DNA from: a gamma proteobacterium symbiont of Stewartia floridana
GTDB taxonomy: Bacteria > Pseudomonadota > Gammaproteobacteria > Chromatiales > Chromatiaceae
Reading direction: 5' to 3'
NCBI GenBank assembly: GCA_003676145.1
Contig: NAUB01000024.1
Span: 1-64,000 of the forward strand
Length of the DNA: 64,000 bases
A model generated the notes under the pieces. That model did no database searches, had not been told where the DNA came from, and saw only the letters and a program-made list of their open reading frames with translations. The number at the start of each line of letters is the position of its first letter. Within the stretch, counting starts at the first letter, position 1. Below, one piece after another: positions 9,415-46,178 of this stretch. Both the position numbers and the translations under genes were made by a program.

Positions 9415-9435
9415 CTGGCTGATCGTTGAAAGGGC

Positions 9436-10575: not shown

Positions 10576-10609
10576 TTATCAGCTAGGGCCTGTTAACGCG
10601 AAACCAATT

Positions 10610-10631: not shown

Positions 10632-10808
10632 GTCTCCAGCATGGCAGAATGTGTGAATGATAACGCAGCTGGGCAGAAAATAGCCCCAATCATTTGATAA
10701 AAAGGGCGAATGGATTCTCTCTAATCGATGGAAAATCGAGTAATCCCCCCAGGCGACTGCTTTCGCAATGAGTGCGGATTCTTCTGCATGCCTGTCTGGG
10801 TATTACTT

Positions 10809-11540: not shown

Positions 11541-11560
11541 TTGATCGATATGGGGTTGAT

Positions 11561-13467: not shown

Positions 13468-14048
13468 GGTGTTTTTCCTCTGTTTTTCAATTTTGATTCG
13501 CAGAAATTGCTGCGTTCAGTTACCTATACGCAGGGTTTTGCGGGTTGGATTCAATACTGTTTCTGAGTGAATTTGTTAATCGGTTTGCTGCATCTCAACC
13601 AATGGATATTCAGATGTGAGGCAAGGGGTTGCTAATAAGACAGAACGTCTCATTGACCTTTTGACATAGAGTAAATACCCGAACCCAATTGGAGTAACTG
13701 GCAGATGTTCAGATACTCTCTCTACACAGACACGGATGCTACAGACCACGCTTTCTCTGTAGTTTCACGCTCAACTCTTTTTGCGGCGTAGATAAACAGA
13801 AGAACGGATCCAGCGATGTCATTCGGTTAAGCGAATTCACTTTTCATAGCCAATAAGCAGCCAGACCATGAGAGTTTTCAGGCTGGATAATCATTGGTTT
13901 TCGATCCTGTCAATCGGTAGAGATACTCTGTCTATCCATAGGACATAATTTGAAAGTGGGTCTATGCTTCCTATATTGATTAGGGATCTACCGGAATCCA
14001 AATAAGCCGCTTTGTTGGAATAATAAATACAAAGAGGATCAACAGCTT
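13468..14048. other. 581-bp intergenic region
   Basis: No gene is visible. The stretch separates the divergent small secreted-protein gene and the CHAT-like operon, so it holds both promoters. A good candidate for the operon is listed at 13950-13977. The rest shows no repeats or remnants that I can identify. Confidence 0.6.
13950..13977 (+). promoter_or_regulatory. Candidate sigma-70 promoter of the CHAT-like operon
   Basis: TTGAAA (13950-13955) and TATATT (13972-13977) are separated by 16 bp, each one base from consensus. Transcription would start near 13984, giving a leader of about 65 nt with AGAGGA 10 nt before the ATG at 14049. Confidence 0.45.
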
Positions 14049-16307
14049 ATGAGTTCCAAGATTGATCAGCAGCGCAGCGTCACTCTGCGCCCGCTGTATG
14101 GCAATGAAGTCACGCTGACCTGCGATTGGGCCAAATTTCAGGCCGCAGCCATTCGCTGGAGTCGCTCCCTGCGCAATCGTCGCCGCTGGCTGACCAGTGA
14201 TGCCATCATTGAACGCCGCCGCCAGGCTGTCGAACAAGCGGCTGAGATCTTTATCGAGCTGAGGAATCCGAAAAAACATCAGGAGATCATCAGCCGCCTG
14301 GCGAAAGGCGGCATCGTCGAAGTGACACTGCCGCCATTTGAAAGTGAGTCCAAGGATTGGGCACTGAGAATTTTTCCCTGGGAGTATTTTCTATCCACTT
14401 TGACCCGTGAAACCCGCAAGGCACAGCAACCGCCACTGCCATTTCTGATCACCCGGGTATTGCCGCTGGAACACGCCGACAGGGATTACGCAACCATCGC
14501 GGACGACAACATACTGATGGCCCAATGCGCCCCAAAACCTCTGGAGGCGCTCTACAGTTTCCGTTCTGAAGTGGAACTGATGCGCATCAACCTGGACCTG
14601 AAAGATTGGGATTTTGTTCTTCCCAATCCCAACAGTAGCACGCTGAAAGATCGCATCGCTGATCAGTCTCCCGGTCTCGTCCATCTGGCCGGTTTCGATC
14701 TGCACCAGGCGCTACACTACCTGCCGCCGCAAATCAGCGAAGGGGTGGGTCGGCATGAGGATGGTTTTATCATCTCCGATCCGCAAGGGGTGGCGGTAGC
14801 CCTGAAGCCTGAACAACTGGCTGAAATCGTCAATGCCGGCGCACTCAAACCGGCCCTCGTATCGGTAAATGTCTATAACTCTGCAGCCCGCCTTTGTGCC
14901 CTGGCAGTCGCCCATGGTGCCAGGGTTGCGGTGGGTTTCCAGGATGAGATCGATAACCATCTGGCCGAGATATTTTTTGCCAGTCTCTATCGTGCCTGGC
15001 ACGACGATCCTGACACATACGTTCTACCCGCCTTTCAGGCGGCCTTCGAAGAGACCCGAAAACTGCCCGATGAGTACCGTATGCAGGGCAGCGGTATCGT
15101 TCTCTGGTCCAACACCTCCCTGTTATATCAAGTCAGTGAGCGTGAACGTAGTGTGCCACTGATTGAACGGCCATCCACGGGTAGTGGGGACGGGGTTGGT
15201 GATCTGTTACTCGATATTGCACCTTATCAGCGTCTCAACTACGCCATTCTGCACAATCGCGGCCACCTGTTCACTCAGTTCAACGTAACACGGACCTCGC
15301 GGAACTCCCCGGATAAGGTGCACGTGGAAGTCGTCGCCCGCGTCGGTGCGCAGGAGTACCCCTACCGTGGCTCCCACAGTACCGGCGAGGTGGGAAAACC
15401 GGAAGATATCGGCAAGTACATACGCATACCGCTCTCCTGGGACTACCTGCGAACCCTCTCGGAGACTTTGCGAACCACTGTCTATGTACGAATTACCGCC
15501 CACGATAATGTCATCGAGGAGAAGACTTACCAGGTGGATGTGGCACCGCTCGAGGAGTGGAGCGACACAGACGAAGACCGCATCTGGCTGCCATCCTTCG
15601 TGTTACCCAGGGATGTGGCCGTGATCGACGCGGTAGCCGGTGCACGACGCTATTTGAGCGCATTGAGCGACGATCCGAACGCCGGTTTTGATGGCTACCA
15701 GAGTTACGGTCTCTATGTGGATGATCCCTACGGACCGGTGGACACCCAGGTCAGAACAATCTGGTCGGCACTCGTCCTCGATCACCGTCTGCAATACATC
15801 AATCCACCACCATCCTACTATGCCAAAGCGCAAAGGGTGCGCAGTCCATCGGAGGTGTTACGACGCTCTCATGGCACCTGCATTGATCTGACATTGTTGC
15901 TGGCCGCCTGCCTGGAATACATCGAGATCCACCCGGTACTGTTTCTCATCGAAGGTCACGCTTTTCCAGGTTACTGGCGCAGCCCGCAACAGGCGGATTA
16001 CTTTGTTCAAGGTGACTACCCCGACGGTGAGACGGACGCTGAAGAACTGACTGAGGATATGGGCACACCGTCCTGGATGTACTCCAAGGCCCATCTGGAG
16101 CGTATCTACGCCTTTGTATCGGCCGGGCACCTGGTACCTATCGAGAGTACGCTGCTAACCTCCAACAGCGGTTTCTTCGCCGCATGCGATGCAGGCATCG
16201 AGTCACTCAGCGATCCCGACCGATTCCAGTATCTGATCGATGTGCGCCGCGCCAGAAGCGATCCCCAGGGCGCCACCCCACTACCTATCAATAATCAAAT
16301 GTCATGA
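14049..16307 (+). CDS. Degenerate CHAT-like domain fused to transglutaminase-like cysteine protease domain
   Basis: The 752-residue protein has two recognisable halves. Residues about 60-365 look like a CHAT (caspase-like) domain: WALRIFPWEYFL (104-115), LVHLAGFDLH (210-219) and SVNVYNSAARL (272-282) followed by the usual Gly-Ala-rich helix and a surface-tail. The catalytic positions are changed: the second His of the H-x3-HG motif is F216/D217 and the Cys position is Y276, so the domain looks inactive. Residues about 520-710 form a transglutaminase-like domain with C611 in GTCIDLTLLLA, H637 in GHAFPGYW and a possible acidic partner E699 in PIEST. This motif pair recalls the one in DUF4011-type helicase fusions. 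The middle (380-510) resembles a beta-sandwich linker. Its stop overlaps the next gene (ATGA). A defence or regulated-proteolysis role is inference only. Confidence 0.7.
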   Translation: MSSKIDQQRSVTLRPLYGNEVTLTCDWAKFQAAAIRWSRSLRNRRRWLTSDAIIERRRQAVEQAAEIFIELRNPKKHQEIISRLAKGGIVEVTLPPFESESKDWALRIFPWEYFLSTLTRETRKAQQPPLPFLITRVLPLEHADRDYATIADDNILMAQCAPKPLEALYSFRSEVELMRINLDLKDWDFVLPNPNSSTLKDRIADQSPGLVHLAGFDLHQALHYLPPQISEGVGRHEDGFIISDPQGVAVALKPEQLAEIVNAGALKPALVSVNVYNSAARLCALAVAHGARVAVGFQDEIDNHLAEIFFASLYRAWHDDPDTYVLPAFQAAFEETRKLPDEYRMQGSGIVLWSNTSLLYQVSERERSVPLIERPSTGSGDGVGDLLLDIAPYQRLNYAILHNRGHLFTQFNVTRTSRNSPDKVHVEVVARVGAQEYPYRGSHSTGEVGKPEDIGKYIRIPLSWDYLRTLSETLRTTVYVRITAHDNVIEEKTYQVDVAPLEEWSDTDEDRIWLPSFVLPRDVAVIDAVAGARRYLSALSDDPNAGFDGYQSYGLYVDDPYGPVDTQVRTIWSALVLDHRLQYINPPPSYYAKAQRVRSPSEVLRRSHGTCIDLTLLLAACLEYIEIHPVLFLIEGHAFPGYWRSPQQADYFVQGDYPDGETDAEELTEDMGTPSWMYSKAHLERIYAFVSAGHLVPIESTLLTSNSGFFAACDAGIESLSDPDRFQYLIDVRRARSDPQGATPLPINNQMS

Positions 16308-17638
16308 CAGACGATATACGTGTAAACAGTAAGCATCTGGATCGAGCGCTTGAGGCGTTGAATCTCACGCCGGATCCCGACACCCTGAAATCAGCCGACT
16401 CACTCGGCCGGCCGGGCCCTCGCCGCGCCGGGGCGAAAAAGGCGGCCTTGCAAATGACCAAGATGCGGGTGCTGGATATCGGTGGCGAAGCCCTGAGCCT
16501 CGAAGAGCGGCCACTGACCCCGGTTTCACCCAAACGAAGGGGACGCCCTCGCAAAGTAACCGGCAGAGAGCAGGTCAAACTGGAACGCCCGATGTCACTG
16601 TTGCCCTACAACCAGGTCACCCAGGCGGTGGCCCTGCTCGATTATAAATTGACCCCCGAGCGAGGTTTGCGCGAATGGAAGAACGGCAAGATCGTTGGTG
16701 ATGGAACGGATATCAAACCCATGGGCAAAGGCAAAAAAATATTGCTGTTCGTGCACGGCACCTTCAGCAAATCGGATGCCTACTTTGACCAGATAGACAG
16801 AAGAGGCTTCAAGGCCGGTGATGAGTTCCTGCGCTGGGCAAGCCGGCAATACGACCAGATACTCACCTTCGACCATGCCACTCTCTCGAAGAGTCCATTC
16901 GTAAATGCCCACACACTTGCGCTTGCCATGGGCAATACAAACGCCGATGTGGATATCATCAGCCACAGCCGCGGTGGTGTGGTAACCCGCTGGTGGGTTG
17001 AGGCTTTGGACCGGGGGCGTGGCAAAAGGCGGGTGGTATTTGCCGGATCCCCATTGGCCGGTACCGGACTGGCCTCCCCGGCCAACATCCGGGGCGCTAT
17101 GGATATGGCCTATAACATCGGCAATGTCATCACCAAGGTCAGTGCTGCGGTGCCCTTGCTGATGTTTGCCACCGGTATGTTTCAGATCATCACCTCGGTG
17201 TTGCGAGTCGCCGGCAAGACACCCTTGGCCGATGCGGTGGTGGCCATCGTTCCCGGACTCGCCGGTCAATCCCGGGTCGGCAACAACTACGAACTGCTGA
17301 GCTTGCGAAGTTATGCAAATCCCCGCGCGGATCGAGACTATTTTTTTATCGTATCCGATTTTGAGAGTGAGAAAGTTGGCTGGAAGTTCTGGAAGGTGTT
17401 TCGCAAAGGAAAGCTGAAGATGAAGCTTGCCGATATCGGAACAGATATCCTGTTCGAAGGTAAAAATGATCTGGTTGTCGACACCCTCTCCATGACCGAT
17501 TTGACCGATGAACTGATCATCCCGGATTCACAGATTCTCGACTATGGCACCCAGAGTAAAGTGATCCATACAAACTACTTTGAACAGGCCAAGACCCTGG
17601 CCTTTATTCGTAAATCATTTGAGACTACGTCGGGATAG
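16304..17638 (+). CDS. Alpha/beta hydrolase partner of the CHAT-like protein
   Basis: The 444-residue protein has a disordered, basic N terminus (about 1-100, with RRGRPRK at 78-84) and an alpha/beta hydrolase fold from about 143. FVHGTFS (149-155) is the oxyanion region; the nucleophile elbow is SHSRGG (S222); D389 and H422 are candidate triad members. A hydrophobic stretch (about 275-300) may touch membranes. It resembles the PGAP1-like/DUF7379 hydrolases often found next to CHAT genes, an assignment from memory. The 4-bp overlap with the upstream gene indicates translational coupling. No signal peptide is seen, so it is probably cytoplasmic. Whether it cleaves lipids or other esters is unknown. 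Confidence 0.75.
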   Translation: MTDDIRVNSKHLDRALEALNLTPDPDTLKSADSLGRPGPRRAGAKKAALQMTKMRVLDIGGEALSLEERPLTPVSPKRRGRPRKVTGREQVKLERPMSLLPYNQVTQAVALLDYKLTPERGLREWKNGKIVGDGTDIKPMGKGKKILLFVHGTFSKSDAYFDQIDRRGFKAGDEFLRWASRQYDQILTFDHATLSKSPFVNAHTLALAMGNTNADVDIISHSRGGVVTRWWVEALDRGRGKRRVVFAGSPLAGTGLASPANIRGAMDMAYNIGNVITKVSAAVPLLMFATGMFQIITSVLRVAGKTPLADAVVAIVPGLAGQSRVGNNYELLSLRSYANPRADRDYFFIVSDFESEKVGWKFWKVFRKGKLKMKLADIGTDILFEGKNDLVVDTLSMTDLTDELIIPDSQILDYGTQSKVIHTNYFEQAKTLAFIRKSFETTSG

Positions 17639-17818
17639 TAGATAAGACCCAAGTTCAATAAACCACACTAACCATTCGATCAGAAACTTTGGCTTCAAAT
17701 GGACGACTTTGCCAGGATCTACCGCCAACTGAACTCCTTTGCGGCATTAATCAGAATGAGCGACGACTGCACAACTTGACTGATTCCGTTGGCAAGAAGA
17801 TGCACCGATGGATCGGTG

Positions 17819-18802
17819 CTAGCTGGTCCTGAAGTGATCGAACCCAAGCTGTGGTGGGTGCCATGCTTCGCCTTGCTTATCGACACAACGCAAGCCCGGT
17901 TCTGCTTCGACACAGCCTATGCGACTGATCGGCAGTGACAACTGTCTGGCAACGGCCGACACCGCCTCACGACATTCAGCGGGCAGGGTCAGGCAGAGCT
18001 CGTAGTCATCACCCGCTGAAACCAAGCGGGACCAATCCATATCATCCCCCATGACCGCACGCAGTTCAGCTGAAACAGGCAACTGCTCAAGTTGCAGACT
18101 GGCCCCTACGCCACTCTTTGAAAGGATATGTCCCAGGTCAGCAAGCAGACCATCAGAGAGATCAATGGCGCTATGGGCCAGATGGCGTAGTGCAATGCCT
18201 GCCTCCACTCTCGGTTGCGGCCGCTCCAATCGGTCGACCAGTTTCTGCTGAGCTGCTGTGAAAGCCTGTGTTGATTCAAGCAAGCGCAACCCCATCGCCG
18301 CATCACCCAGGGTCCCGGTGACATAGATATCGTCCCCAACCTGCGCGCCGTCACGACGCATCGCCTGATCTTTTGCAACCATTCCATGGATCTGTACAGT
18401 GAGACTGAGCGGTCCTCTGGTGGTATCGCCACCCACCAGGGAGACGTTGAATCGATTCGCCAACTCGGCGAATCCTCGACAAAAGCCGGCGATCCACTGT
18501 TCATCCACTTCCGGCAGAGTCAGTGCCAGGGTGGCCCAGCTGGGTTCAGCGCCCATCGCGGCCATGTCACTCAGATTGACCGCCAATGCCTTATGCCCCA
18601 GTGCCTCGGCGGACACATCCTGAAAAAAGTGTACCCCCGAGACCATCGTATCGACACTCACCACCAACAAGCTCTCTTCCGGCACCTGCAGCAACGCAGC
18701 ATCATCGCCAACCCCCAGAACCACATCCTGGCGCGGATTGGTGAGCTGTTTGAAATATTGGTTAATCAGGGCGAACTCAGGGGTCTCTTTATTGATCTTC
18801 AT
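17819..18802 (-). CDS. thiL: Thiamine-monophosphate kinase
   Basis: The 327-residue enzyme phosphorylates thiamine monophosphate to the active diphosphate. The PurM-like N-terminal motif GVGDDAALL (30-38), SVDTMVSGVHF (49-59) and VGGDTTRG identify the family, and DLSDGLLADLGH near 215 completes the substrate site. Length is normal. In relatives thiL lies between nusB and pgpA; here it stands alone, about 8.8 kb from nusB and 7.2 kb from pgpA, all on the same strand. Confidence 0.95.
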   Translation of the reverse strand: MKINKETPEFALINQYFKQLTNPRQDVVLGVGDDAALLQVPEESLLVVSVDTMVSGVHFFQDVSAEALGHKALAVNLSDMAAMGAEPSWATLALTLPEVDEQWIAGFCRGFAELANRFNVSLVGGDTTRGPLSLTVQIHGMVAKDQAMRRDGAQVGDDIYVTGTLGDAAMGLRLLESTQAFTAAQQKLVDRLERPQPRVEAGIALRHLAHSAIDLSDGLLADLGHILSKSGVGASLQLEQLPVSAELRAVMGDDMDWSRLVSAGDDYELCLTLPAECREAVSAVARQLSLPISRIGCVEAEPGLRCVDKQGEAWHPPQLGFDHFRTS

Positions 18803-18916
18803 CTGATAATCAGCAATTGTCTCCTATAATTGGCAGTGTAACTTTCCACCAAAAGAAGAACAAAGCGAGATTCCCTCCGGGGTTGAATTAAAAAGAAGAA
18901 GAAAGAGGCGGTAGTA

Positions 18917-19330
18917 ATGAGTGAACCGAAGAGCTTCCAGATCATCGAAAAACTGGGAGATATCCTGGTAGAGACCTTCCACATCGTCGGCCTGTTCGTG
19001 ATCGGCGCCACCGTGGTCTGGTCCGGCGTGGTGGCCTACATGGAGATGGTCAGCCACGGCCATGCGACTCTCAAGGACATCCTGCTGCTTTTCATCTACC
19101 TGGAACTGGGTGCCATGGTCGGTATCTATTTCAAGACCCGCAGACTGCCGGTACAGTTTCTGATCTATATCGCTATCACCGCCCTGACCCGCTTGCTGAC
19201 CATCGATATCAAACAGATGCCGAATGAGACCATTCTCACCATTACCGGCGCAATCCTGATGTTGACCTTTGCCATTCTGGTGCTTCGCTACCGCCACAGT
19301 CAGGCCAAAGGAGAGCAGGAAGATTTTTAA
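18917..19330 (+). CDS. PsiE-like inner-membrane protein
   Basis: The 137-residue protein has four hydrophobic segments (about 17-40, 56-73, 80-98, 108-127) and the PsiE (phosphate-starvation-inducible E) family signature around LLLFIYLELGAMVGIYF. Function in E. coli is not known. A TATAAT hexamer at 18825-18830 could be its -10 but lacks a good -35. AGAGGCGG precedes the ATG closely. It is divergent from thiL and 233 bp upstream of modA; the sigma-54 promoter lies between psiE and modA, so the two are separately controlled. Confidence 0.82.
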   Translation: MSEPKSFQIIEKLGDILVETFHIVGLFVIGATVVWSGVVAYMEMVSHGHATLKDILLLFIYLELGAMVGIYFKTRRLPVQFLIYIAITALTRLLTIDIKQMPNETILTITGAILMLTFAILVLRYRHSQAKGEQEDF

Positions 19331-34763: not shown

Positions 34764-37700
34764 CTAAAGGCTACAGTTTTGTGCTGCAGCAATGGCGTAG
34801 AATACCATCTGCACCATCTGCGAAGCGTCCTTGTGCCAACCATAACCGCTGTCACGAAGGTGATTGGCGACGGTTGGGCTGTTGAGGTTGGAATTGAATC
34901 CACGCCTTGCCTGAGCGCAGCGGCTGTCACTCACCTGCCCGGTATCGAGGGCATTGCCAAGCATCACAGTTCCAAGCGTGTTGAGATGGGCGTTGTCATA
35001 GGTGGGATCCGTGGAGCAGGTGCCGTTGCTCGGATTGATCATTCCTGTGCAGTTATATTGAACGCACTGTTCAACGATATCACTGCCACTACTGAAATCG
35101 CAGACATAGCTGTTTCCCCAGGCAGCGGGTGAGAAGTCGGTAATTTCATCACTGCCGTCGCGTGGAATACCCGCGTCGATCAGGCGAGCACTGCTGGCCA
35201 GCGCATTGATAATGGTTTCACGCTGGCTGTTTCCCGGCGGCAGATCGAGTGCATGATTGTAGAACAGTTCCTGCCACAGGGCGACATAGTGGAAGACCCC
35301 ACCGGGTGCAAAGGCACAGTCGGTCCGGTTGGTATCCGCATCATCGCTGTAGCAGAAAAGACCATTCGAGAGATTGTCTGCAATGTACTCCTGCATCATT
35401 GCACTGTACTTGGCCCTTAGTGCCTTATCGTTTTCAAATGCAAAATCGGCGGCGAATCGCAGGGCATTGAGATGCTGCATCACCTGACGGTTGATGACTC
35501 TTGATGAAACCGTATCCTCCCGATTCTCAGCCGTATCAACATAGCGACTGATCACCGAGTCACCCGCCGCCTGGAATCGCTCGGCCAGTGACCGGTGTGG
35601 ACGGATCACATACGCCTTACCTGAGCCCTGGTTGTAAAACTTGTCATCCGAACCGTAACCGGAGCGGTAGCGGGCACCATCCCCAATACTACTCGAACCG
35701 ATCACCAAGCCGCTGCGAATACCCACCACTCCCCGACTGCCAGTGTTGTAGGCATTGCTCTTCCACAGGTTCCACTCCGCCGGCAGCGCATAGTCCCACA
35801 CCCACTTTGGATCGCCGGTGATAAACCACATCAGCAGCTCACTGTTTGTCGGACTCCAGATATTGTTGCCGGGTGAATAGTCATTCACGCTGGTGTTGAC
35901 GATATCCTTGATGCCTTCCTGCATCGAGTCGACCCAACCAACCAGAGAGTAACCCTTCATACGATCCCGTTGCGCCCCACCGAGGATACTGTCAGTGACA
36001 CTGTTCTCATGCGCCCCCTCGATCAACGGCACCAGAACATCCATCTCAGAAGCGGAAACTGCCGGAAGTTGAGGAAACACTTTGGCTTGATTCAGATACC
36101 ACAGAGGTGAGCGCCAGAGCAGACCCCGCTCCATGGCAGCGTTGTTGCGAGCTGCACGCAGCGCAAACTCACTGTCACTCAGGCTCTCTGTATCGATGGA
36201 GAGACGCCCGCGACCCCAGATTCCCTGAGCCTCACCGAGGACAAAGGGATCGGTTAGATCAGCCATCACAGGATAGAGACTGACCGAGACCTGGCCTGAG
36301 CCATAGTTGCTTTGTGCTGCAAGCCCCTGGGGTTCGCGAAAACGCATCCAGGGCTGCTGCACCTGCAGAGTCAGATTGGCATCACTTACCCCGGCGACCG
36401 GTAGCGGGAAAAATTCAGCATCAACACTGTTTGATGCATCGGATGGTAAGGTGGTTATGGTCTCCCTCGCCCATCGCCAATCACTACCCGAAAGGTTTCC
36501 CACAGCACCTTTATACTGTCTCACTACAGCCGACGCACTGCTGGTACCGGCTCCCCCACTATTGCTGATGTCACTGCCATCTCGGCTGGAACGGGTGACA
36601 ACCGTCGTACCATCCATGCCGCTGAAATCGAATGTCAGAATCAGATTACCGATATCGAGGGTACGGCTCCACCAGTCGGAACCATTGATTGCCCCGCCCG
36701 GCGAAGCGGCGAACATGCCGTCACCACACTCATTGACAAAATCGGTTTCAAGATCGAGATCGGCACTGCCACGCGTCAAGGTCCAGCGCAGGGTATAACC
36801 GGGAGGGTTGCTGCAACCAGGACCAGTCAAACCGTTCACATGACCACGAACTCTTATGACGGCCTTGACCGGACCGTTCTCCTCCACGAGAAATTCACTG
36901 CTGTCGGCCCCAGGTGTTGCCGATTGAACGGAATCCCCGTCAACCTGAATCCTGCCGGTAAAGGTAGCCGTACCGACCTGCCCACTGCTGATGCCTGAGG
37001 CGGATGCCGGATCGAAGCTTACCTGACTCAGACCGGTATCCACATTGACGGTACCATCAGGATTGATCGATACCTGCAAAGCGTTTGTATCAGTGACTGA
37101 CGGCATTGTGGCGCAGTAGCGTAGTGAATAGTTGGATTTTCTGGACGGTTCAGCAGCCACCACAGCGGCCACCTCCAGCCATTTAAGGGGTGCATCGCTA
37201 TCGGACAGCGCTCCATTCCAACGAGCCAGGGGACGAAACTGGGCGGCAACCAGGGTCTCATCCGGGCCGACAAGCACCAGGTTTGACGTACCGGTGAGTG
37301 ACACCTCCCGTGGTATCGGAACACCGCTCCAGGCCAATTCCGAGCTCCGATCCACCGATTGATCGTTGGTCAGCTCAAGTGTGGTAAGCGCTTCACATTG
37401 ATTGGTCAATCTCCCCAGACTGGAAATGACCGGGACGCTGGTACCGCTGTTATGGAAGGGGCTGGTATTCGACGCAAGGGTGTTAACATCGTCGACGTAT
37501 TCCCAGCGCCAGCTGGCAGGACGGCCATCGATCGAACCGTTGATACTACCCCTGACCTGAAAAAGATGTTCACCTACGCCCACTCCTGCAACAGTATGCG
37601 GACTGCTACAGCTGCTCCATCCAGAGTCATCCAGATTACACTCAAAAACGGCACCATCCGGACCACTGAAACTGAACGATGCATCAGCACGCCGGGTGCC

Positions 37701-37997
37701 GGGGAATGGTGCCGAGGAGATCCAGGTTGTAGTGGCGCTGCCAGATGTAGTTACGGGAGGTTCACTGTCATCAGGCGGTGTATCTTCAGGAGGCGTGCCA
37801 TCGGGTGGAGTATCATCTGCCGGTGTATCGTCGTCTGTCGTTGGCGGGCTCTCATCGGATGTCCCATCATCGCCCGGCGCAGCGTCGTCATTAGAAGATC
37901 CGCCACCACAGGCCGGTAACAATAAAAGTAGCGTAGCGAGAAGCATAAATAACGGAATCCATCTGCGTGAGATGCGATTCAACGACAAAAAGGTCAT
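34764..37997 (-). CDS. Large surface lipoprotein, possible rhamnogalacturonan-lyase-like enzyme
   Basis: The 1077-residue protein has a signal peptide and lipobox LLPACG near residues 25-30, followed by an acidic Asp/Pro/Thr linker (about 34-85), typical of outer-membrane lipoproteins that display a domain outside. Residues about 88-165 look like an Ig-like domain with a Cys pair. From about 190 the sequence (SVDRSSELAWSGVPIPREV; APLKWLEVAAVV) resembles the PcRGLX/YetA exo-rhamnogalacturonan lyase group, which has RIFT-barrel and alpha/alpha domains. This is a tentative match from memory. Several cysteines near the C terminus (about 990-1045) could form disulfides. It would degrade or bind polysaccharide outside the cell. 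Confidence 0.6.
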   Translation of the reverse strand: MTFLSLNRISRRWIPLFMLLATLLLLLPACGGGSSNDDAAPGDDGTSDESPPTTDDDTPADDTPPDGTPPEDTPPDDSEPPVTTSGSATTTWISSAPFPGTRRADASFSFSGPDGAVFECNLDDSGWSSCSSPHTVAGVGVGEHLFQVRGSINGSIDGRPASWRWEYVDDVNTLASNTSPFHNSGTSVPVISSLGRLTNQCEALTTLELTNDQSVDRSSELAWSGVPIPREVSLTGTSNLVLVGPDETLVAAQFRPLARWNGALSDSDAPLKWLEVAAVVAAEPSRKSNYSLRYCATMPSVTDTNALQVSINPDGTVNVDTGLSQVSFDPASASGISSGQVGTATFTGRIQVDGDSVQSATPGADSSEFLVEENGPVKAVIRVRGHVNGLTGPGCSNPPGYTLRWTLTRGSADLDLETDFVNECGDGMFAASPGGAINGSDWWSRTLDIGNLILTFDFSGMDGTTVVTRSSRDGSDISNSGGAGTSSASAVVRQYKGAVGNLSGSDWRWARETITTLPSDASNSVDAEFFPLPVAGVSDANLTLQVQQPWMRFREPQGLAAQSNYGSGQVSVSLYPVMADLTDPFVLGEAQGIWGRGRLSIDTESLSDSEFALRAARNNAAMERGLLWRSPLWYLNQAKVFPQLPAVSASEMDVLVPLIEGAHENSVTDSILGGAQRDRMKGYSLVGWVDSMQEGIKDIVNTSVNDYSPGNNIWSPTNSELLMWFITGDPKWVWDYALPAEWNLWKSNAYNTGSRGVVGIRSGLVIGSSSIGDGARYRSGYGSDDKFYNQGSGKAYVIRPHRSLAERFQAAGDSVISRYVDTAENREDTVSSRVINRQVMQHLNALRFAADFAFENDKALRAKYSAMMQEYIADNLSNGLFCYSDDADTNRTDCAFAPGGVFHYVALWQELFYNHALDLPPGNSQRETIINALASSARLIDAGIPRDGSDEITDFSPAAWGNSYVCDFSSGSDIVEQCVQYNCTGMINPSNGTCSTDPTYDNAHLNTLGTVMLGNALDTGQVSDSRCAQARRGFNSNLNSPTVANHLRDSGYGWHKDASQMVQMVFYAIAAAQNCSL

Positions 37998-38348: not shown

Positions 38349-39260
38349 CTATTTACTCCCGGATTCATTTAACAAACTTTCATATTTCAGTACGAGTTCA
38401 CGAACTTTATCGAGTTCGGATGCAGAGATATTGACCACTCGATTGGATCTGAACAACGAGAGAAGATGCATTGTTCTCGGATACTGGTCGAGATTACCTG
38501 CCATCTGAGCAATACGTTCTTTGAAATTTAACGGCACACGCTTATTAATGCCTATTACCACTTGAATCGTGGGTTCGGATGCGATGACTGGTACGATTGC
38601 ATGGCGAATCTGCGGGTTGAGCTCCTGTGCAAGTTCGAAAGCCACATCGGTAACCAATGCCGAGTCCACCTTGTTGAAAAACAGATTTATGATGGCGTCG
38701 TTGAGACTTTCCGGGTGTTGAATTTCTGAAAAATGCTCTGCTGTTTGAGGCAATTTTCGATCCAGCAGGTTCATATCAAGAAATATTTTTCCAAGTTGGT
38801 GACCATAGGGAAAGGCTGGTGATCTCCCCGCCAATTGCGACAGCTCCTTGATATTGTCTGATTTTCTGACCAGCAACATAATTTTCTGCTGTAACCGCTC
38901 TCCAAACAGCAGTGAATAGTGATGATCTTCGTCAATCTGCTGCTCTATGGCCAGGTAATCCACAGGATTTGCCAGAACCGCATCGAGATTGTCTTCGCGC
39001 ATCTGCCTAATAACATTCATCGGATCCTGAAACTCAGTGAATTGGCACTGTTTATCGATGTTTTTCATAAACTCGATAAACGTCATCTCAGTGGCGATGC
39101 GTGAATCCATGCTGTGTGTCGAATAGAACAGACGAGACATGATGCCGATATAGGCAGCATCTCTTTCATAGGGATCACTCTGAGCCTGGGAAAAACCAAT
39201 AGCCGCCATACCGCTTAAAAACAGTAACAGCTGTATTACCTTATAGGCTTTGGTTTTCAT
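38349..39260 (-). CDS. PhnD-like periplasmic binding protein (paralog 1)
   Basis: The 303-residue protein has a signal peptide (about 1-27) and a PhnD/SsuA-type type-2 periplasmic binding fold. It shares with three neighbours the block FFNKVDSALVTDVAFELA then QELNPQIR near 195-220, and HLLSLFRSNRVV near the end. In PhnD-type transporters such proteins bind phosphonate or phosphate analogues, but no permease or ATPase is here, so a sensory role with the GGDEF-EAL protein is more likely. Last gene of the operon, 32 bp after paralog 2. It is closest to paralog 2. Confidence 0.8.
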   Translation of the reverse strand: MKTKAYKVIQLLLFLSGMAAIGFSQAQSDPYERDAAYIGIMSRLFYSTHSMDSRIATEMTFIEFMKNIDKQCQFTEFQDPMNVIRQMREDNLDAVLANPVDYLAIEQQIDEDHHYSLLFGERLQQKIMLLVRKSDNIKELSQLAGRSPAFPYGHQLGKIFLDMNLLDRKLPQTAEHFSEIQHPESLNDAIINLFFNKVDSALVTDVAFELAQELNPQIRHAIVPVIASEPTIQVVIGINKRVPLNFKERIAQMAGNLDQYPRTMHLLSLFRSNRVVNISASELDKVRELVLKYESLLNESGSK

Positions 39261-39292
39261 GGCTCACATGTTTTCGAGCTAAAATCTGATTG

Positions 39293-40243
39293 CTACCTGG
39301 ATTGCAGTAATTGGTTATATCGATCGATAAGCTGTTGTGTTGAGCTGATATCAGACTGATTCAGTTTAATGAATTTATTTGCTCTGAATAGCGAGAGCAG
39401 ATGTTTAATTCTCACGTTTTCATGGGTTTTACTCATAATGCCGTCGATTCTGGCTTTGTTTTTCTCTGAGATGTTCTTATTCAGACCGATGATTTGAGGT
39501 ATCATGCCCTGGGATTCTGCCAGAGGTTTCAGATTGGTTCTAATGCGAGGATTAAGCTCTGAGGCAAGTTCAAATGCTATATCCGAGACCAGAGCTGCAT
39601 CTGTCTTATTGAAAAAAAGATCCACAATCGCGCTATTGGTATCTATCGTTTCATGAACAGTAGTAAAGTACTGGTCAATTGTTGGGTAGTCACTTTCCAT
39701 TAAAAGCACGTCGAGATAGGCTCTACCCAGGAAATGCCCTGCGGGTATCGATATCTCTTTGCCATATAATCCCGATATACTGTCGATATTGTCGGACTTC
39801 CTGACAAGAAGCAGTACAGTTTGCTCAGCTCGTTCCCCGTAGATCAGGGAGTAGAGCCTACGCATATCAATTAAATTTTGCATCTCAAGAAAATCGATCG
39901 TATTGATGAATATCGCATCAATTCGATTATTGGCCAAGTCATTCTTCAGCTTGTTTTTATCGTCATAAACAATGATTTCCGACCTCATACCCAATGCGCC
40001 AAATACTTCCCTGATAATCATATCGGTCGCAATCGTGGTATCTGTTGCATTGGCATCGAACAAGACTTTAGACATTCTGCCAAAGTAACCATTTTCTGGC
40101 ATCTGAACGTACCGGTCTGGTAATTTACCCGCTTGAGTGGCAAAAAATGGAATTGAAGCCAGCAACAGAAGCATCGCGGCTATAGAAGTGACAAACCAAC
40201 GGCCCTTTGACGGCCAAACAGTGATGAGTTTTCTAACAACCAT
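39293..40243 (-). CDS. PhnD-like periplasmic binding protein (paralog 2)
   Basis: The 316-residue protein begins with an N-terminal hydrophobic segment (about 15-37) after a basic stretch, so it may be a signal peptide or a membrane anchor. The binding domain carries FFNKTDAALVSDIAFELA then SELNPRIR near 210-236 and HLLSLFRANKFIKL near the C terminus, matching paralog 1 closely. The pair probably arose by tandem duplication. It lies 133 bp after paralog 3. Confidence 0.8.
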   Translation of the reverse strand: MVVRKLITVWPSKGRWFVTSIAAMLLLLASIPFFATQAGKLPDRYVQMPENGYFGRMSKVLFDANATDTTIATDMIIREVFGALGMRSEIIVYDDKNKLKNDLANNRIDAIFINTIDFLEMQNLIDMRRLYSLIYGERAEQTVLLLVRKSDNIDSISGLYGKEISIPAGHFLGRAYLDVLLMESDYPTIDQYFTTVHETIDTNSAIVDLFFNKTDAALVSDIAFELASELNPRIRTNLKPLAESQGMIPQIIGLNKNISEKNKARIDGIMSKTHENVRIKHLLSLFRANKFIKLNQSDISSTQQLIDRYNQLLQSR

Positions 40244-40376
40244 TATTTGTCATATGTTGAATACTACTTTCAACACCCCTTCATAGTAGCTTTTTAGCAG
40301 TGATTTCTGGTTAAACCGCCTTTTCTATTATCTTTGTTGGCTGTGAATCCCGTTAATTTTCTGACTCAGATTAAAG

Positions 40377-41297
40377 CTAATTTGCGGCATGGTTTGCTCT
40401 GCGGGATAAGTCATGGAATTCATGACGTAATTCACGCACCTCAGTCAGGGAACTACTGGATAGCTTTGTTATTGCCGATATCCGAAACAGGAGCATTGAT
40501 TGAGCCAAGTTGGCTGAACGCTGAGTATTGAGAAAAAAAGGTTCTATCTTCTCAAGTTTAACCTGAGAAAAGTCTTGTCTTACTGCAACCACTTGGTGTA
40601 TCAGCGGTTCAGAGACCTGAATGATATTCAGTTGTTTCCGCATCTGTGGATTGAGCTCACAAGCCACTTCATACGAAAAGTCGGTGACCAGTGCAGCATC
40701 GACCTTACCAAAAAAGAGGTCTATCAAGGCGGAATTGGAATCACTGGTTTCGCGAATTGCTGAAAAGAACTGGTTCGAAACAGGATAGTTTTGACGCATC
40801 AGCAGCACATCGAGATACATATTACCGACGTCATATCCCTTGGGTATACTGATTTTCCTGCGTTTCAGGTCCTCCAGACTGTCTGTGCCAGCATTGCGTT
40901 TTGCAATCAGGTAGAATTTTGGTTTGATATTGGGACCATGCTGAATGACATAAGTACCATTTGGATTAAGAATCTCCTCCATTTCCAGATATTGAAGTGT
41001 ATCGGTAAATACAGCATCGATATCTCCTTTGAGTAACTTATTCTGAACCTCGATCTTATTCTGAAAGACGTCAAGTGCAACCACTTCACCTGACTCCTTG
41101 AGGATATCATTCAGCACCAGGGTAAATGCTATTTTCGCATCAGCGACGCTGATATCGTAGAGCGTATCCTTACTGACGCCCGCCAGGATAGTGGCTTTCT
41201 GCTCACTACCAATGGCCGGCAAAAAAAGCTGCATCATTATGAATACTACACACGCAAAATTTATTAATCTGCTTGATAGTTTCATAATTTTTGGCAA
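40377..41297 (-). CDS. PhnD-like periplasmic binding protein (paralog 3)
   Basis: The 306-residue protein has a signal peptide (about 1-30) and the same binding fold. It carries ATILAGVSKDTL just after the signal peptide, LPFGKV-type block FFGKVDAALVTDFSYEVA then CELNPQMRKQ, and MLLFRISAITKL. These mirror paralog 4, so 3 and 4 form one subgroup and 1 and 2 another. It follows the GGDEF-EAL gene after 69 bp. Confidence 0.8.
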   Translation of the reverse strand: MPKIMKLSSRLINFACVVFIMMQLFLPAIGSEQKATILAGVSKDTLYDISVADAKIAFTLVLNDILKESGEVVALDVFQNKIEVQNKLLKGDIDAVFTDTLQYLEMEEILNPNGTYVIQHGPNIKPKFYLIAKRNAGTDSLEDLKRRKISIPKGYDVGNMYLDVLLMRQNYPVSNQFFSAIRETSDSNSALIDLFFGKVDAALVTDFSYEVACELNPQMRKQLNIIQVSEPLIHQVVAVRQDFSQVKLEKIEPFFLNTQRSANLAQSMLLFRISAITKLSSSSLTEVRELRHEFHDLSRRANHAAN

Positions 41298-41366
41298 ATC
41301 AGTTATTTCAGTCAGCTTCTATAATTTTAGATAATAAACGTCAACATACAATCGCGTCATTTATGT

Positions 41367-43817
41367 TCAACCATCACTCTCTCTTTTCGCTTTAATATCA
41401 GTCACAACCGCTTGAGTCACACCACGATTGATCAAATTGTAGAGCGCTGTTGCCGGCATAGGTTTATAGTAGAAAAAGCCCTGTATCAGGTGGCACCCAT
41501 TTGATCTCAACCATTCCATCTGCTCTTTTTCTTCGACACCCTCTCCCACAGTGGTAATATCAAGACTATGGGCTAAGGATATGATTGACTTCACCACAGC
41601 AACAGTCCGTTTATCTTCCGGTAGACGATTGATAAAAGACTTATCCAGTTTAATGACATCAATCGGCAGTTCTGAAATATAGCTCAATGAGGAGAATCCT
41701 GTACCGAAATCGTCTACAGCCAGTTGAAACCCCATGCGCTTGAGTTGATTCAACAGCGGCAGATTGTTCCCTTCTTCACTCACAAGAACATGCTCAGTAA
41801 ATTCCAATTGAATCTGATGCGCTGATATATCATATTCAATCAGTTTCTCACGCAGTCTTTCTGCATAATTTACATTGACCAGCTCTGTACCGGAAACATT
41901 AACCGAGACAGTGATACCAGAGCCCCACTGCTGAAGCTGCCTACAGACTTGATCAAATACCCAATCACCAATAGAACGAATCAAGCCGGACTGTTCGGCT
42001 ATCGGTATAAATCTTCCCGGCGGAATCATTCCACGCTCAGGATGCTTCCATCTGAGCAAAGCCTCACAATGCTTGATACTATTCGTTCTTTCGTCGACAA
42101 ATGGCTGAAAGACCAGATAGAGCCCCGTATCGTTGATCGATTTTCTAAGCGCACTCTCAATATCCAGATACTCTCGCATATTGTCATGCATCTCTTCGGA
42201 GAAGAATCGATAGCAGTTTTTACCACTTTTTTTCGCGGCATACATGGCCGTATCCGCATTTTTGATCAACTCCTTGGTGCTAACGCCATCATTCGGAAAG
42301 GTAACTATACCTATACTCGCACTGGTTCTAAGCTCATGATCATTGATATAGACAGGCATGCTGAACTTATTCAGTATGGTTTCACACACCCGGCTGATCG
42401 CGTCATAGTCGTTAGCACCACGGATAATGGCAGTAAACTCATCACCACCAAGCCGACAGATAGTATCGTCGGTTCTCAACGACTCCTGCATTCTCCAGCC
42501 AATATCCTCCAAAACCTGGTCGCCCACTTCGTGACCGAGTGAATCATTGATGATCTTGAAATTATCCACATCCAGAAATATCAACGTAAAGGCTGTATTG
42601 AACATTTCCGCTTCTTCAACCGCCTCATTCATACGATCCATGAAATAGCGGCGATTCGGCAGTTGGGTTAACTTATCGATATAGGCCAGGGTCTCCAGTT
42701 CCTGCTCCAACTGCTTTCTTCTGGTAATATCCGACAAAATGATGAAGAAGCCACCGGATTCCACTTCATGCAGATCGAATTTCTCGATTCGCATTGTCAG
42801 ATGATAGGTTTTATCAGTCGACACTTTAAACGTTAAGTCGTTTGTACAGTCATGAAAGTCAATCCCTGACAGCTCATTCTGTAACTCTTTTTGTTTGTTT
42901 CGTCCGATTTTCAGATGTATGAAAAACTTTGTCAGACTCATTCCGTTGAAATTATCAGCATCTTCACTGAAAAAATTGGTCAGCGCGGAATTCACATAGA
43001 TGATTTTGCTATTGTCATCGAATATCGCAATCGCATCGTTGGTATCCTGAACAAGTCGCGCAAGCCGTCTCAGGTGTCGTGTGTTCTCGTCAAGACTGAT
43101 CGCCATACCGTTCAATGTATTGGCCAACAGACTGATTTCACCGATGGCGTTCGTCGGCGCACGTGCCAATAAATCACCTTCTGCCAGCTTTGACGCAGTT
43201 TGCCGAAGCTTTGTTAATTGCTGTGAAAGACTCAGTGAACTACCATGAAGCAACAGCAGCGTGATAACCACCAGCATCAGACTGAATAACAGTACATTTT
43301 TAAAATAACTGGTGAGCAGAGCCTGATATTCCTCATCTGATAGACCGATAGTGAAATCACCCCAATCGTATCCACTGATTATTATCGGTTTTGAGAAGAC
43401 AAACCCACTTAAACTATCTGAGCCATTAATATTCTCCAGGTGATCTATACTGAATGCGTCTTGTGAACGCTCCAGTTGCAATACACTGCGACCATCTTGC
43501 TGTTCAAACACCCACCCTTCAGAAGTTAATTTGATCGTATTGCCATCATGTGATGAGAAATTCACAAAGTTCACTTCCGGTGTGTTCTTCAGTACTTTAT
43601 TGATATAGGAGATGATAAAGCTGAAATCCTTTGTATAGAGCGCCTCACCGCAGGCTGCTATCGTCGAATTAGCAAAGGTCTCACCCTGACTTGCAATCAT
43701 CTTAACCAGTTTGTCTTGGTAGATCGGCAGCAATATCAAAGAAAATATCACATTGATCGCCAGCAGAATCAGCGCAATTCTTTTGAACAGATGTTTAAAA
43801 ATCGTTGATTTGTTCAT
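41367..43817 (-). CDS. Membrane GGDEF-EAL protein with periplasmic sensor, HAMP and PAS domains
   Basis: The 816-residue protein has TM1 (about 13-32), a periplasmic domain (about 33-170), TM2 (about 172-190), HAMP (about 193-246), PAS (about 253-370), GGDEF (motif near 457) and EAL (motif near 585). The diguanylate cyclase site is intact (GGDEF) with an inhibitory RxxD (RTDD) five residues before it. The phosphodiesterase site also looks intact (EALLRW, NVSGTE, EFTEH, DDFGTGFSSL, K in IKLDKSF, GEGVE). It can therefore make and break cyclic di-GMP, with the balance set by the periplasmic input. Its start overlaps the stop of paralog 4 by 4 bp, so at least that binding protein is a likely partner, as NspS is for MbaA in Vibrio cholerae. 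Confidence 0.93.
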   Translation of the reverse strand: MNKSTIFKHLFKRIALILLAINVIFSLILLPIYQDKLVKMIASQGETFANSTIAACGEALYTKDFSFIISYINKVLKNTPEVNFVNFSSHDGNTIKLTSEGWVFEQQDGRSVLQLERSQDAFSIDHLENINGSDSLSGFVFSKPIIISGYDWGDFTIGLSDEEYQALLTSYFKNVLLFSLMLVVITLLLLHGSSLSLSQQLTKLRQTASKLAEGDLLARAPTNAIGEISLLANTLNGMAISLDENTRHLRRLARLVQDTNDAIAIFDDNSKIIYVNSALTNFFSEDADNFNGMSLTKFFIHLKIGRNKQKELQNELSGIDFHDCTNDLTFKVSTDKTYHLTMRIEKFDLHEVESGGFFIILSDITRRKQLEQELETLAYIDKLTQLPNRRYFMDRMNEAVEEAEMFNTAFTLIFLDVDNFKIINDSLGHEVGDQVLEDIGWRMQESLRTDDTICRLGGDEFTAIIRGANDYDAISRVCETILNKFSMPVYINDHELRTSASIGIVTFPNDGVSTKELIKNADTAMYAAKKSGKNCYRFFSEEMHDNMREYLDIESALRKSINDTGLYLVFQPFVDERTNSIKHCEALLRWKHPERGMIPPGRFIPIAEQSGLIRSIGDWVFDQVCRQLQQWGSGITVSVNVSGTELVNVNYAERLREKLIEYDISAHQIQLEFTEHVLVSEEGNNLPLLNQLKRMGFQLAVDDFGTGFSSLSYISELPIDVIKLDKSFINRLPEDKRTVAVVKSIISLAHSLDITTVGEGVEEKEQMEWLRSNGCHLIQGFFYYKPMPATALYNLINRGVTQAVVTDIKAKRESDG

Positions 43818-44716
43818 GGTGATTCCGATTTACTACTTAATCTGCGGTATTCACTGATGAGCTGTTGCACTTCAGCCAGAGTGTTCTCCTTCACTTTTTT
43901 CATGGCTGTGATGCGAAAGGTTTTCATCGTCTCATGCAACTTAGGAGTGTTATGCATATTTAAAACATACGGCTCAAGACCATCGATTCTCTGTTGTGAA
44001 AAATCAGATCGTACTGAAACCACCTGATGCACAAGTGGCTGAGAAACCTCTATCACACCAAGCTGTTTTTTCATCTGGAGATTGAGCTCTGTTGCCACAT
44101 CATAGGCATAATCCAAAACCAAGGCAGCATCAACCGACTCAAAAAACAGATTGATTACCGAGGAGTTAGAGTCACTGGTCATACGAACTTCTGAAAAAAA
44201 GCGATCGGATTTTGGCAATCCATGCCGCATCAATAGCACATCGAGAAACAGCTCACCGACCGCGTATCCTTGCGGTATTGCGATTCTTTTTCCAGACAGC
44301 TGATCTACTCGCTCTATCCCACTGCTTTTTTTAGTCAACAGGTAGTATTTGGGCTTTACACTGGGGCCATGTTGAACAACATAGCTTCCATTCGGATTCA
44401 GATGATCTTTGACTTGAAGGTAGTGAATTGTGTTAGTGAAGACAGCATCAAGTTCGCCAGCCAACAGTTGACTCTGCAACTGCTCGTTTGTCTCATATAC
44501 CTCTAGTATGAAACGCTCATTGGTTTTTTCTATTGCTTCATTGAAAAGCAGAGAGAAACTGATTTTTGCTTCAGTGACAGTTGAGTCAAGAAGAGACTCT
44601 TCACTGGTACCCGCAATGATTGTGACCTCATGCTCATCGCCATGGATCACAGCCACCCCCTGACCAAACAGCAGGGCCACAAACAGGGTATAGAGCAATG
44701 CTTTTTGTAAACGCAT
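43814..44716 (-). CDS. PhnD-like periplasmic binding protein (paralog 4)
   Basis: The 300-residue protein starts at the ATG at 44716 (MRLQKALLYTLF), which gives a normal signal peptide (about 1-25); a longer frame upstream runs into tolC and is unlikely. It carries VTIIAGTSEESL and FFESVDAALVLDYAYDVA then TELNLQMKKQ, matching paralog 3. Its stop overlaps the GGDEF-EAL start (ATGA), and it begins 22 bp after the TolC-like gene, so all are cotranscribed. Confidence 0.82.
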   Translation of the reverse strand: MRLQKALLYTLFVALLFGQGVAVIHGDEHEVTIIAGTSEESLLDSTVTEAKISFSLLFNEAIEKTNERFILEVYETNEQLQSQLLAGELDAVFTNTIHYLQVKDHLNPNGSYVVQHGPSVKPKYYLLTKKSSGIERVDQLSGKRIAIPQGYAVGELFLDVLLMRHGLPKSDRFFSEVRMTSDSNSSVINLFFESVDAALVLDYAYDVATELNLQMKKQLGVIEVSQPLVHQVVSVRSDFSQQRIDGLEPYVLNMHNTPKLHETMKTFRITAMKKVKENTLAEVQQLISEYRRLSSKSESP

Positions 44717-44738
44717 TATAAACCTGGGAACATCACAT

Positions 44739-46178
44739 CTACTCAGTGGCCTCTCTGCCCAGCAGGTAGGTAATCTCGGCCAGGTGCAGCGCCTGGTCAT
44801 GTTTCGCGCGATAGTGATTGGCTCGCACCAGGGCATCCATCAGATTGGCCTCGATCACTTTTTCGGTCTTTACTGCACCGGTCTGGTAGGCCCGGCTGCT
44901 CAGATCCCGATTCTCCCGGGCGGTCTCGACGGCGCTCTGGGTGATCTCGATCTGCTGTTTTGCCGCGCTTGTCTGCAGGAACAGATGCTTGATCTGGGTA
45001 GCCAGACTCTCATTGAGCAACAATCGCTGTTGCTCCTTCTGGTCACGCCCCACTCTGGCTGCGGAGACACGGTGTTGTGTCCGGCCGCCTTCAAACAGTT
45101 TCAGTTTGACCCCGATACCCAGGGTCCAGGAGTTCCGGTTGGCATCCGTATCGAGACCACCATCCAGATCGTTGTCGAAACCACCGACCGAGGCCATCAG
45201 GCCCACCATGGGGTAGTGATCGCTGGTTGCCTCCTCGATCTTCGCCTCATACACATCGACTGCCAGCTTCAACTGTTGCGCCTGGGGATTGAAATCGAGC
45301 GCCTGCTCGACCAGGTTCTCCAGGGCATCCTCCGGAATGGTGACGGCATAATCGGGATTCTCTAGACGAATCTCGTCACGCCAGTCCAGGCCCATGGCAA
45401 ACGCCAGGGCCGCCAGGGCCGAGGCATGTTTGGCGGCCAGCTCAGCCCGGGTCGCTGAAGCGAGGGTGTAGGCCAGCTTGCTCTGCAGCAGATCCAGCTT
45501 GTTGACAGAATTCGAGCCACCATCGTAGAACGCCTGGGTGATATCCCGTAACGCCTCGAAGGAGATGGAGATCTCCTCGGCGAGATCCTCCAGCTGCTGG
45601 GTGTAGTGAGCCGCATAGAAATAGCGCTTCACATCCTGCACCACCTGCAGGTCGGTGCGTCGCACCTCCTGTGCGGCGATGTCCACCCCGAGCCTGGCCT
45701 GCTCGATCAGACTGGAGCGCTTGCCCCCGGTATAGAGGGGGTAGTTCATATCGAGGGAATAGAGGGTGGTGTCCCGCCCCAGGATATCGATCTCCTGAGC
45801 TGGCACATCCACCGGCGGCAGCATACCCGGCATCAGATCGAAACGCTGTGCGGGGTACTCAAAAGTGGCGGTTTCGTCCCGTCTCTGGAAGCTGGCATTC
45901 AGACTGAGGCTCGGCCAGTAGGCCGACTTGGCCTGTTGGTACTGCTCCTCGGCGATCTGCATGGATTGTTGGGAGATGGTCCTCAGGCGATTGTTCTCCA
46001 GGGCCACGGCAATCGCCTGATCAAGATCATAGGCTTTGACGGAAGATTCCGCGGTCGCGAGAGCTGGAAAAACAATCAGAAAAACAGCTGTGAACAAGCG
46101 TGTCACACTGGGTGTGCGCCCGTTATTCTGCCGTTTATGGGGACCAAACGAGTGCTTTGGTAACGGCTCGAAAGTCAT
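44739..46178 (-). CDS. TolC-family outer-membrane protein
   Basis: The 479-residue protein has a signal region ending near residue 43 and two repeated helical halves typical of outer-membrane efflux proteins (YDLDQAIAVALENN near 50-63; RTDLQVVQDVKRYFYAAHYT; LARAYQTGAV-type region near 440). Such proteins form trimeric channels for type I secretion or RND efflux. No inner-membrane pump is adjacent; instead it heads the operon of binding proteins and the c-di-GMP enzyme. That suggests export of a signal, adhesin or polymer, but the partner is unknown. Confidence 0.88.
   Translation of the reverse strand: MTFEPLPKHSFGPHKRQNNGRTPSVTRLFTAVFLIVFPALATAESSVKAYDLDQAIAVALENNRLRTISQQSMQIAEEQYQQAKSAYWPSLSLNASFQRRDETATFEYPAQRFDLMPGMLPPVDVPAQEIDILGRDTTLYSLDMNYPLYTGGKRSSLIEQARLGVDIAAQEVRRTDLQVVQDVKRYFYAAHYTQQLEDLAEEISISFEALRDITQAFYDGGSNSVNKLDLLQSKLAYTLASATRAELAAKHASALAALAFAMGLDWRDEIRLENPDYAVTIPEDALENLVEQALDFNPQAQQLKLAVDVYEAKIEEATSDHYPMVGLMASVGGFDNDLDGGLDTDANRNSWTLGIGVKLKLFEGGRTQHRVSAARVGRDQKEQQRLLLNESLATQIKHLFLQTSAAKQQIEITQSAVETARENRDLSSRAYQTGAVKTEKVIEANLMDALVRANHYRAKHDQALHLAEITYLLGREATE

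Follow-up and report, generated by a model that had tools for sequence, protein, structure and literature searches.

The gene run at positions 38349-46178 (minus strand) of the window, the 64,000-nucleotide stretch of contig NAUB01000024.1 from a gammaproteobacterial symbiont of Stewartia floridana, raises the question of what four binding proteins do beside a GGDEF-EAL enzyme when no permease or ATPase gene lies within the run. Judged from its sequence, the genome (G000) would belong to Candidatus Thiodiazotropha, whose members are sulfur-oxidising symbionts of lucinid clams. The six genes follow one another in the order TolC-SBP1-GE-SBP2-SBP3-SBP4, where TolC is a TolC-family outer-membrane protein, SBP1 to SBP4 are substrate-binding proteins (SBPs) and GE is the GGDEF-EAL enzyme. 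The intergenic gaps are 22, -4, 69, 133 and 32 bp, the first of which assumes that SBP1 starts at 44716, the longest SBP1 open reading frame (ORF) beginning at 44836. The gene content, the spacing and the absence of a permease or ATPase given in the initial annotation were all confirmed, and Pfam assigned OEP to TolC, PF12974 to all four SBPs and HAMP, GGDEF and EAL to GE.

We consider it probable (about 0.65) that the cluster encodes an NspS-MbaA-like receptor with cyclic di-GMP (c-di-GMP) output, which uses ArrX-like SBPs and has one to four inputs depending on the species. We infer that SBP1 and its paralogs SBP2-4 would be exported to the periplasm, where they would bind small ligands and, instead of serving a transporter, would dock with GE at its Cache-fold periplasmic domain. 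The docking signal would pass via the second transmembrane segment (TM2), HAMP and PAS and shift c-di-GMP synthesis by GGDEF, with its I-site, against breakdown by EAL. SBP1, whose gene overlaps that of GE, would be the core partner, SBP3 a second and older input, and SBP2 a lineage-specific duplicate of SBP1, while SBP4 may modulate the response. So read, the cluster is a candidate receptor, conserved and limited to the genus, whose inputs vary and whose output would be c-di-GMP; it is a concrete and testable proposal for how environmentally acquired chemosymbionts read cues in host or sediment. If true, a single c-di-GMP receptor fed by several SBPs would go further than NspS-MbaA with its one SBP.

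NspS is a polyamine SBP of the PotD type, to which the PF12974 proteins of the cluster do not belong. A homolog of the NspS-MbaA system is reportedly present in Sinorhizobium meliloti (PMC9993111). NspS-MbaA of Vibrio cholerae is the closest known design. The accessible part of its description (PMC8079147) states that nspS lies directly upstream of mbaA, that MbaA is likely bifunctional, and that detection, not import, drives the response. In both systems an SBP gene lies immediately 5' of the gene for a GGDEF-EAL-type enzyme that sits in the membrane and carries a periplasmic domain, which is predicted here, and both catalytic domains are present in GE. The differences are that GE has canonical GGDEF and EAL motifs, whereas MbaA has SGDEF and EVL according to the same partial text, and that the cluster has up to four SBPs and a TolC gene in the run.

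GE (816 aa, 41367-43817) has the predicted architecture TM-Cache-TM-HAMP-PAS-GGDEF-EAL. Pfam matched HAMP, PAS (PAS_4 above the cut-off, PAS_9 just below), a GGDEF domain with an RxxD I-site (PF00990, 166.8 bits, 42216-42686; RTDDTICRLGGDEF) and an EAL domain (PF00563, 257.6 bits, 41460-42152). The GGDEF, RxxD, EAL and DDFGTG motifs and the N, E, K and E motifs were intact in 19 of 19 GE homologs, as was the QG motif in all 17 of the 19 that were displayed, in agreement with the intact catalytic motifs claimed for the enzyme. The periplasmic domain claimed with them is predicted at residues 36-170 (43308-43712), where the sensor was modelled as a Cache fold that matches ligand-binding Cache and PAS domains, e.g. 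CitA and Tlp3. It gave a single match in the window's genome at E 1e-8, with seven of ten candidates scored. Cyclases of the YfiN/CHASE8 type, which are under the control of a periplasmic protein, share with GE a Cache-clan periplasmic domain, HAMP and GGDEF; they differ in that GE showed no Pfam CHASE8 match at E 0.001 and is partnered with an SBP, not YfiR.

The cluster was traced in a set of 56 genomes including the window's own, 22 of which belong to its genus. SBP1 was matched at E 1e-8 in 18 of the 56, every one in the genus, and inspection of 18-19 kb around each cluster found TolC, SBP1 and GE together in 17 of the 22 genus genomes, which is more than chance. The 4-bp overlap of the SBP1 and GE genes was present in all 19 pairs. 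Two of these are lone pairs with neither SBP2-4 nor a full TolC: L040, from a genome (G002) with a full cluster as well, and L054 (G016). A 105-aa ORF upstream of L040 has weak TolC similarity over 50 residues. Gene order past GE was conserved. In the 17 clusters SBP2 occurred four times, SBP3 16 times and SBP4 14 times; four cluster genomes have four SBPs, ten have three, two have two and one has one. The cluster was also restricted to the genus in wider sweeps. The SBP profile matched 18 genomes, none outside the genus, in a sweep of the order (210 genomes), and four in a sweep of the class (369 genomes, in some of which only part of the first-look candidates were scored). Two of the four were outside the genus at ~1e-16; in both, the gene downstream of the SBP gene codes for a chemoreceptor (L084 by Pfam, L085 by inspection). 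The sensor profile, scored with the same limit, matched 14 genomes of the class, two in the genus at 474-476 bits and 12 outside it at 36-50 bits; eleven of the latter aligned only from residue 136 onward (the C-terminal edge of the sensor, TM2 and HAMP), and the twelfth (L086, G283) aligned from residue 58 with the N-terminal region of what is a hybrid histidine kinase by inspection. At L086 (3999-7813) a 354-aa SBP-like gene overlaps the kinase gene by 4 bp, so that the design is alike although the SBP type and the output differ. In G014, the smallest genome of the genus (~2.6 Mb), the search found a 267-residue TolC stretch with one stop (G014:C28:14453-15259) and no SBP match, which is possibly a decayed cluster.

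To relate the SBPs to the sensor, partial Mantel correlations of protein distances across genomes were calculated with the distances of GGDEF and EAL, linear and squared, partialled out (5000 permutations). SBP1 co-varied with the sensor in 17 genomes (r 0.55, p 0.0002, the least possible at this number of permutations). In the same genomes SBP1 gave r -0.18 (p 0.97) with PAS and 0.12 (p 0.13) with TolC; the other PAS control for SBP1 was -0.01. PAS is a fair control because its rate of evolution is close to that of the sensor (mean distance 0.46 vs 0.55), and all PAS controls gave p >= 0.53. In the 14 genomes with both SBP3 and SBP4, SBP3 co-varied with the sensor at r 0.39 (p 0.0028), which became 0.46 (p 0.002) given SBP1; the PAS and TolC controls were -0.26 and -0.21. 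Since SBP3 sits beyond the EAL end of GE, linkage to the sensor-coding end hardly explains this signal. The SBP4-sensor correlation was 0.24 (p 0.018; PAS control -0.06). After dereplication to 10 genomes, the values were 0.54 (p 0.0004) for SBP1 and 0.44 (p 0.0002) for SBP3, and a first version of the distance analysis gave the same picture. The claim of four inputs in the initial annotation thus fares unevenly. Coupling to GE is well supported for SBP1 and fairly for SBP3, in both cases indirectly, and weakly for SBP4; SBP2 may be an input by paralogy only, and other species have one to four.

The surroundings of PF12974 proteins in this genome and family mostly point to signalling. In the window's genome (96.97% complete) no PhnE exceeded the cut-off (best 37.8 of 216.7 bits, with six permease matches below it), and phosphonate transport was rejected for this genome on that ground, PhnC not having been searched on its own. 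PhnE was absent from 11 of the 17 cluster genomes and present in six, so phosphonate transport is not needed in most of the genus. The window's genome has 17 PF12974 matches over the cut-off, of which four are SBP1-4, nine others exceed 100 bits and four are weak. Eight of the nine strong matches are joined to signalling genes, by overlap of the longest ORFs or by fusion: four single-domain genes overlap receptor genes (GGDEF-EAL on contigs C36, C13 and C5, kinase on C14), and four proteins are fused to a kinase (C7, C32), to GGDEF (C25) or to PAS with a GGDEF gene overlapping next (C16). The ninth is a 251-aa gene on C5 whose neighbour is, by inspection, a PAS protein. The weak matches are a 982-aa frame on C13, a 265-aa gene beside an ABC_sub_bind gene and a kinase on C31, and two GGDEF-EAL proteins (C35, C10) for which SBP_bac_3 is the better match. 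At L055 of the same genome (G000:C5:72000-90000), a second PF12974 gene overlaps a HAMP-PAS-GGDEF-EAL gene (8757-12141), and the pair lies downstream of what seem to be a type I secretion locus, with HlyD and two ABC proteins, and a SulP transporter.

A census of the family gave a similar result. It took 39 of 77 rows (E 1e-15) that were of stand-alone length, 34 from outside the genus and five from G009; left out were the rows of the window's genome, cluster rows, fused proteins, a broken and a short row of G033 and the double-domain frame of G029. Three regions without a valid SBP ORF (L150, L153, L165) were dropped, and 36 remained; some regions reach contig ends. With partner classes assigned by similarity to reference domains, not by Pfam, a signalling gene stood next downstream in 29 of the 36 regions (13 GGDEF or GGDEF-EAL, 15 histidine kinase and one methyl-accepting chemotaxis protein); two have PhnE, one has another ABC protein and four have no such neighbour. 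A single SBP was found in 35 of the 36, so arrays of three or four SBPs are unusual. Many PF12974 proteins of this bacterial family, named as phosphonate-binding, stand with signalling genes and not with uptake genes, which bears on their annotation. The NspS-MbaA-like reading first suggested for the cluster is sustained by gene coupling, by the lack of PhnE over the cut-off in this genome, by this sensory wiring and by the co-variation with the sensor; the type of SBP differs. The accessible part of one paper (PMC9602780) describes SBPs that stimulate cyclases, phosphodiesterases, kinases and chemoreceptors, and that of a review (PMC8846402) says that, within the periplasmic-binding-protein (PBP) clan in c-di-GMP networks, only SBP_bac_3 has been studied. 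Among the matches listed from the open-access literature, no description of PF12974 SBPs with GGDEF-EAL partners was found.

SBP1 (300 aa, 43814-44716, with a signal peptide by inspection), SBP2 (306 aa, 40377-41297 if it starts at TTG, an ATG at 41285 being possible), SBP3 (316 aa, 39293-40243) and SBP4 (303 aa, 38349-39260) matched PF12974 at 87.5, 74.5, 67.6 and 47.8 bits against a Pfam cut-off of 27 bits. Their nearest solved relative, by profile and by fold, is ArrX, an oxyanion-binding protein with a sensory role, and the closest folds to the AlphaFold2 model of SBP1 (mean pLDDT 88.5) are ArrX and AioX. In the accessible text of PMC5908839 such PhnD-fold SBPs are the first component of signal transduction; their partner is an AioS-type sensor histidine kinase, whereas that in the cluster is a GGDEF-EAL enzyme. 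The AioX pocket listed there consists of Tyr88, Cys106, Tyr131, Ser161, Ser163, His192 and Asp210. Our comparison covers the Cys, the two Ser and the His of the ArrX/AioX list. In the ArrX profile alignment (18% identity) the Cys is replaced by Asn, the two Ser of Ser-x-Ser by a gap and Val/Leu, and the His by Ser/Thr/Leu; the Ser-Thr-Ser of PtxB is likewise not retained. The key oxyanion contacts thus appear to be lost, and the ligands are probably neither phosphonates nor arsenic oxyanions. The PhnD equivalog cut-off (261.1 bits) was not reached by SBP2 (37.6) or SBP1 (36.5), and SBP3 and SBP4 gave no match; PhnD/PtxB uptake of phosphonate or phosphite differs further in that the run has no PhnC or PhnE and the genome no PhnE over the cut-off. 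The label PhnD-like is misleading for the ligand, with ArrX as the nearest solved relative and three ArrX/AioX oxyanion contacts not kept. BstB, a sterol-binding PF12974 protein in the accessible part of PMC10942540, differs in belonging to a transport set and not to a receptor. In a tree of 53 SBPs, whose output warned that long branches meet, SBP3 and SBP4 formed separate supported clades, sister to one another, and SBP2 nested in the SBP1 clade beside SBP1 of the window and of L037. This placement suggests that SBP1, SBP3 and SBP4 are old and that SBP2 is a duplicate found in four species only. Of the two pairs initially described, the joining of SBP3 with SBP4 stands, as separate clades, and SBP2 lies inside the clade of SBP1.

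Several points weigh against a receptor with multiple SBP inputs. The SBP4-sensor correlation loses significance given SBP1 (r 0.18, p 0.07) and in the dereplicated set (r 0.25, p 0.057; p 0.17 with PAS and TolC also removed), where SBP1 also co-varied with TolC (r 0.38, p 0.005), which weakens specificity. SBP1 adjoins the sensor-coding end of GE, and linked recombination could account for part of its signal. The sample consists of 10-17 related genomes, and separate promoters would fit into the gaps of 69 and 133 bp. Comparison of the window with L037, given below, shows that SBP1 and GE have different histories there and do not always travel together. One alternative is a simple NspS-MbaA-like pair, in which SBP1 is the sole partner of GE and SBP2-4 serve other receptors or a transporter or buffer the ligand: SBP1-GE is the minimal unit, SBP1 is the only SBP that overlaps GE, SBP2, SBP3 and SBP4 are each absent from some clusters, and the co-variation of SBP4 is weak. 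We regard it as rather unlikely, as SBP3 co-varies with the sensor given SBP1, gene order past GE is conserved, and the sensor has the single genomic match described above. GE could instead sense a ligand directly via its Cache domain, with the SBPs tuning access or antagonising. The resemblance of the modelled domain to CitA and Tlp3 would agree with this, but the SBP-sensor co-variation and the gene overlap favour protein contact and make it improbable. The four alternatives weighed here and in the next paragraph overlap, and their odds need not sum to one.

It seems very improbable that the SBPs serve an ABC transporter encoded elsewhere, with GE as a neighbour that is unrelated or secondary. 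The PF12974 family takes its name from transport proteins, PhnE occurs in six cluster genomes, and the sub-cut-off permease matches leave another ABC permease possible; against these stand the absence of PhnE over the cut-off from the window's genome and 10 other cluster genomes, the signalling genes beside most PF12974 proteins of genome and family, the overlap with GE in all 19 pairs and the loss of the oxyanion contacts. The remaining alternative concerns TolC (479 aa, 44739-46178; PF02321, 180 bits), which would export a product, with the SBPs sensing how much of it is in the periplasm. TolC is the first gene of the run, is probably co-transcribed with the cluster and is co-inherited with it, a near-full-length match (E 1e-60) being found in exactly the 17 genus genomes with the cluster. 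Its best NCBIfam model is the type I secretion TolC (TIGR01844), at 139.7 bits and below the cut-off of 225.15. However, no export partner was found for it and no inner-membrane export gene lies within the run, the two lone SBP-GE pairs have no full TolC, and its G+C content exceeds that of SBP1 in all 17 loci (59% vs 44% in the window), which suggests a different origin. The idea that it is the outer channel of the L055 type I secretion locus was not supported, since the 719-aa ABC protein of that locus is distributed differently: outside the window's genome, matches at 97-98% were confined to G010, G002 and G016, the last without the cluster TolC, matches at 33% occurred in five further genomes, and 13 of the 22 had none at E 1e-100. 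We therefore hold sensing of an export product to be improbable, and the link of TolC to an exported product proposed in the initial annotation comes down to co-occurrence. The window's genome encodes five TolC-family proteins, plus a weak match in an HlyD protein; against the E. coli TolC model (cut-off 495 bits) a protein on C13 scored best at 394.5 and the cluster TolC scored 63.9.

The receptor encoded by the cluster may also be one whose parts are exchanged. Synonymous divergence (dS) of flanking genes was 0.18-0.29 between the window and L037 (six genes) and 0.34-0.35 between the window and L038 (two genes). Against L038, dS was 0.25 for TolC, 2.24 for SBP1, 1.21 for GE and 0.43-0.77 for SBP2-4, and the proportion of synonymous differences (pS) was 0.79 in the sensor-coding part of GE and 0.48-0.56 in its other domains. 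At the TolC-SBP1 boundary DNA identity dropped from 94% to 64%, and past the HAMP region it was back at 88%, so that one divergent tract spans SBP1 and the sensor-coding end of GE. Against L037, dS was 0.08 for SBP1, 0.88 for GE and 0.49-0.77 for SBP2-4. A rule that SBP1 and GE always recombine together fits the comparisons with L038 and L039 and fails with L037. With SBP1, GE and SBP2-4 well above or below the flanks, the cluster looks mosaic, as if alleles had been exchanged within the genus; the simplest reading of the alignments is that SBP1 was exchanged with the sensor end relative to L038 and apart from GE relative to L037. A tentative extension, which we think possible but do not favour, has several SBPs that differ in ligand competing as agonists and antagonists for a single Cache receptor, and Thiodiazotropha species exchanging alleles of SBP and sensor through recombination. 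If this is true, the host or sediment cues that set c-di-GMP would be retuned while the enzyme core stays fixed.

A promoter scan of the run gave no more sites than shuffled sequences (13 promoter-like sites vs 14.4), and the same applied to terminator-like sites (4 vs 6.7). Downstream of the cluster, the minus strand encodes a 1077-aa protein (34764-37997) that by inspection starts like a lipoprotein; it had no Pfam match at E 0.001. At L047, the annotated locus among L041-L053, Complex1_30kDa and Complex1_49kDa (PF00346), oxidoreductase and rubrerythrin-like genes lie upstream of the cluster (1829-6676), and a multihaem-type cytochrome and a two-component pair lie downstream (13614-18937). 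Genes of similar sizes recur upstream in all 13 of these loci and downstream in most, which hints at a redox context; the neighbours of the cluster in the clade of the window differ from those at L047.

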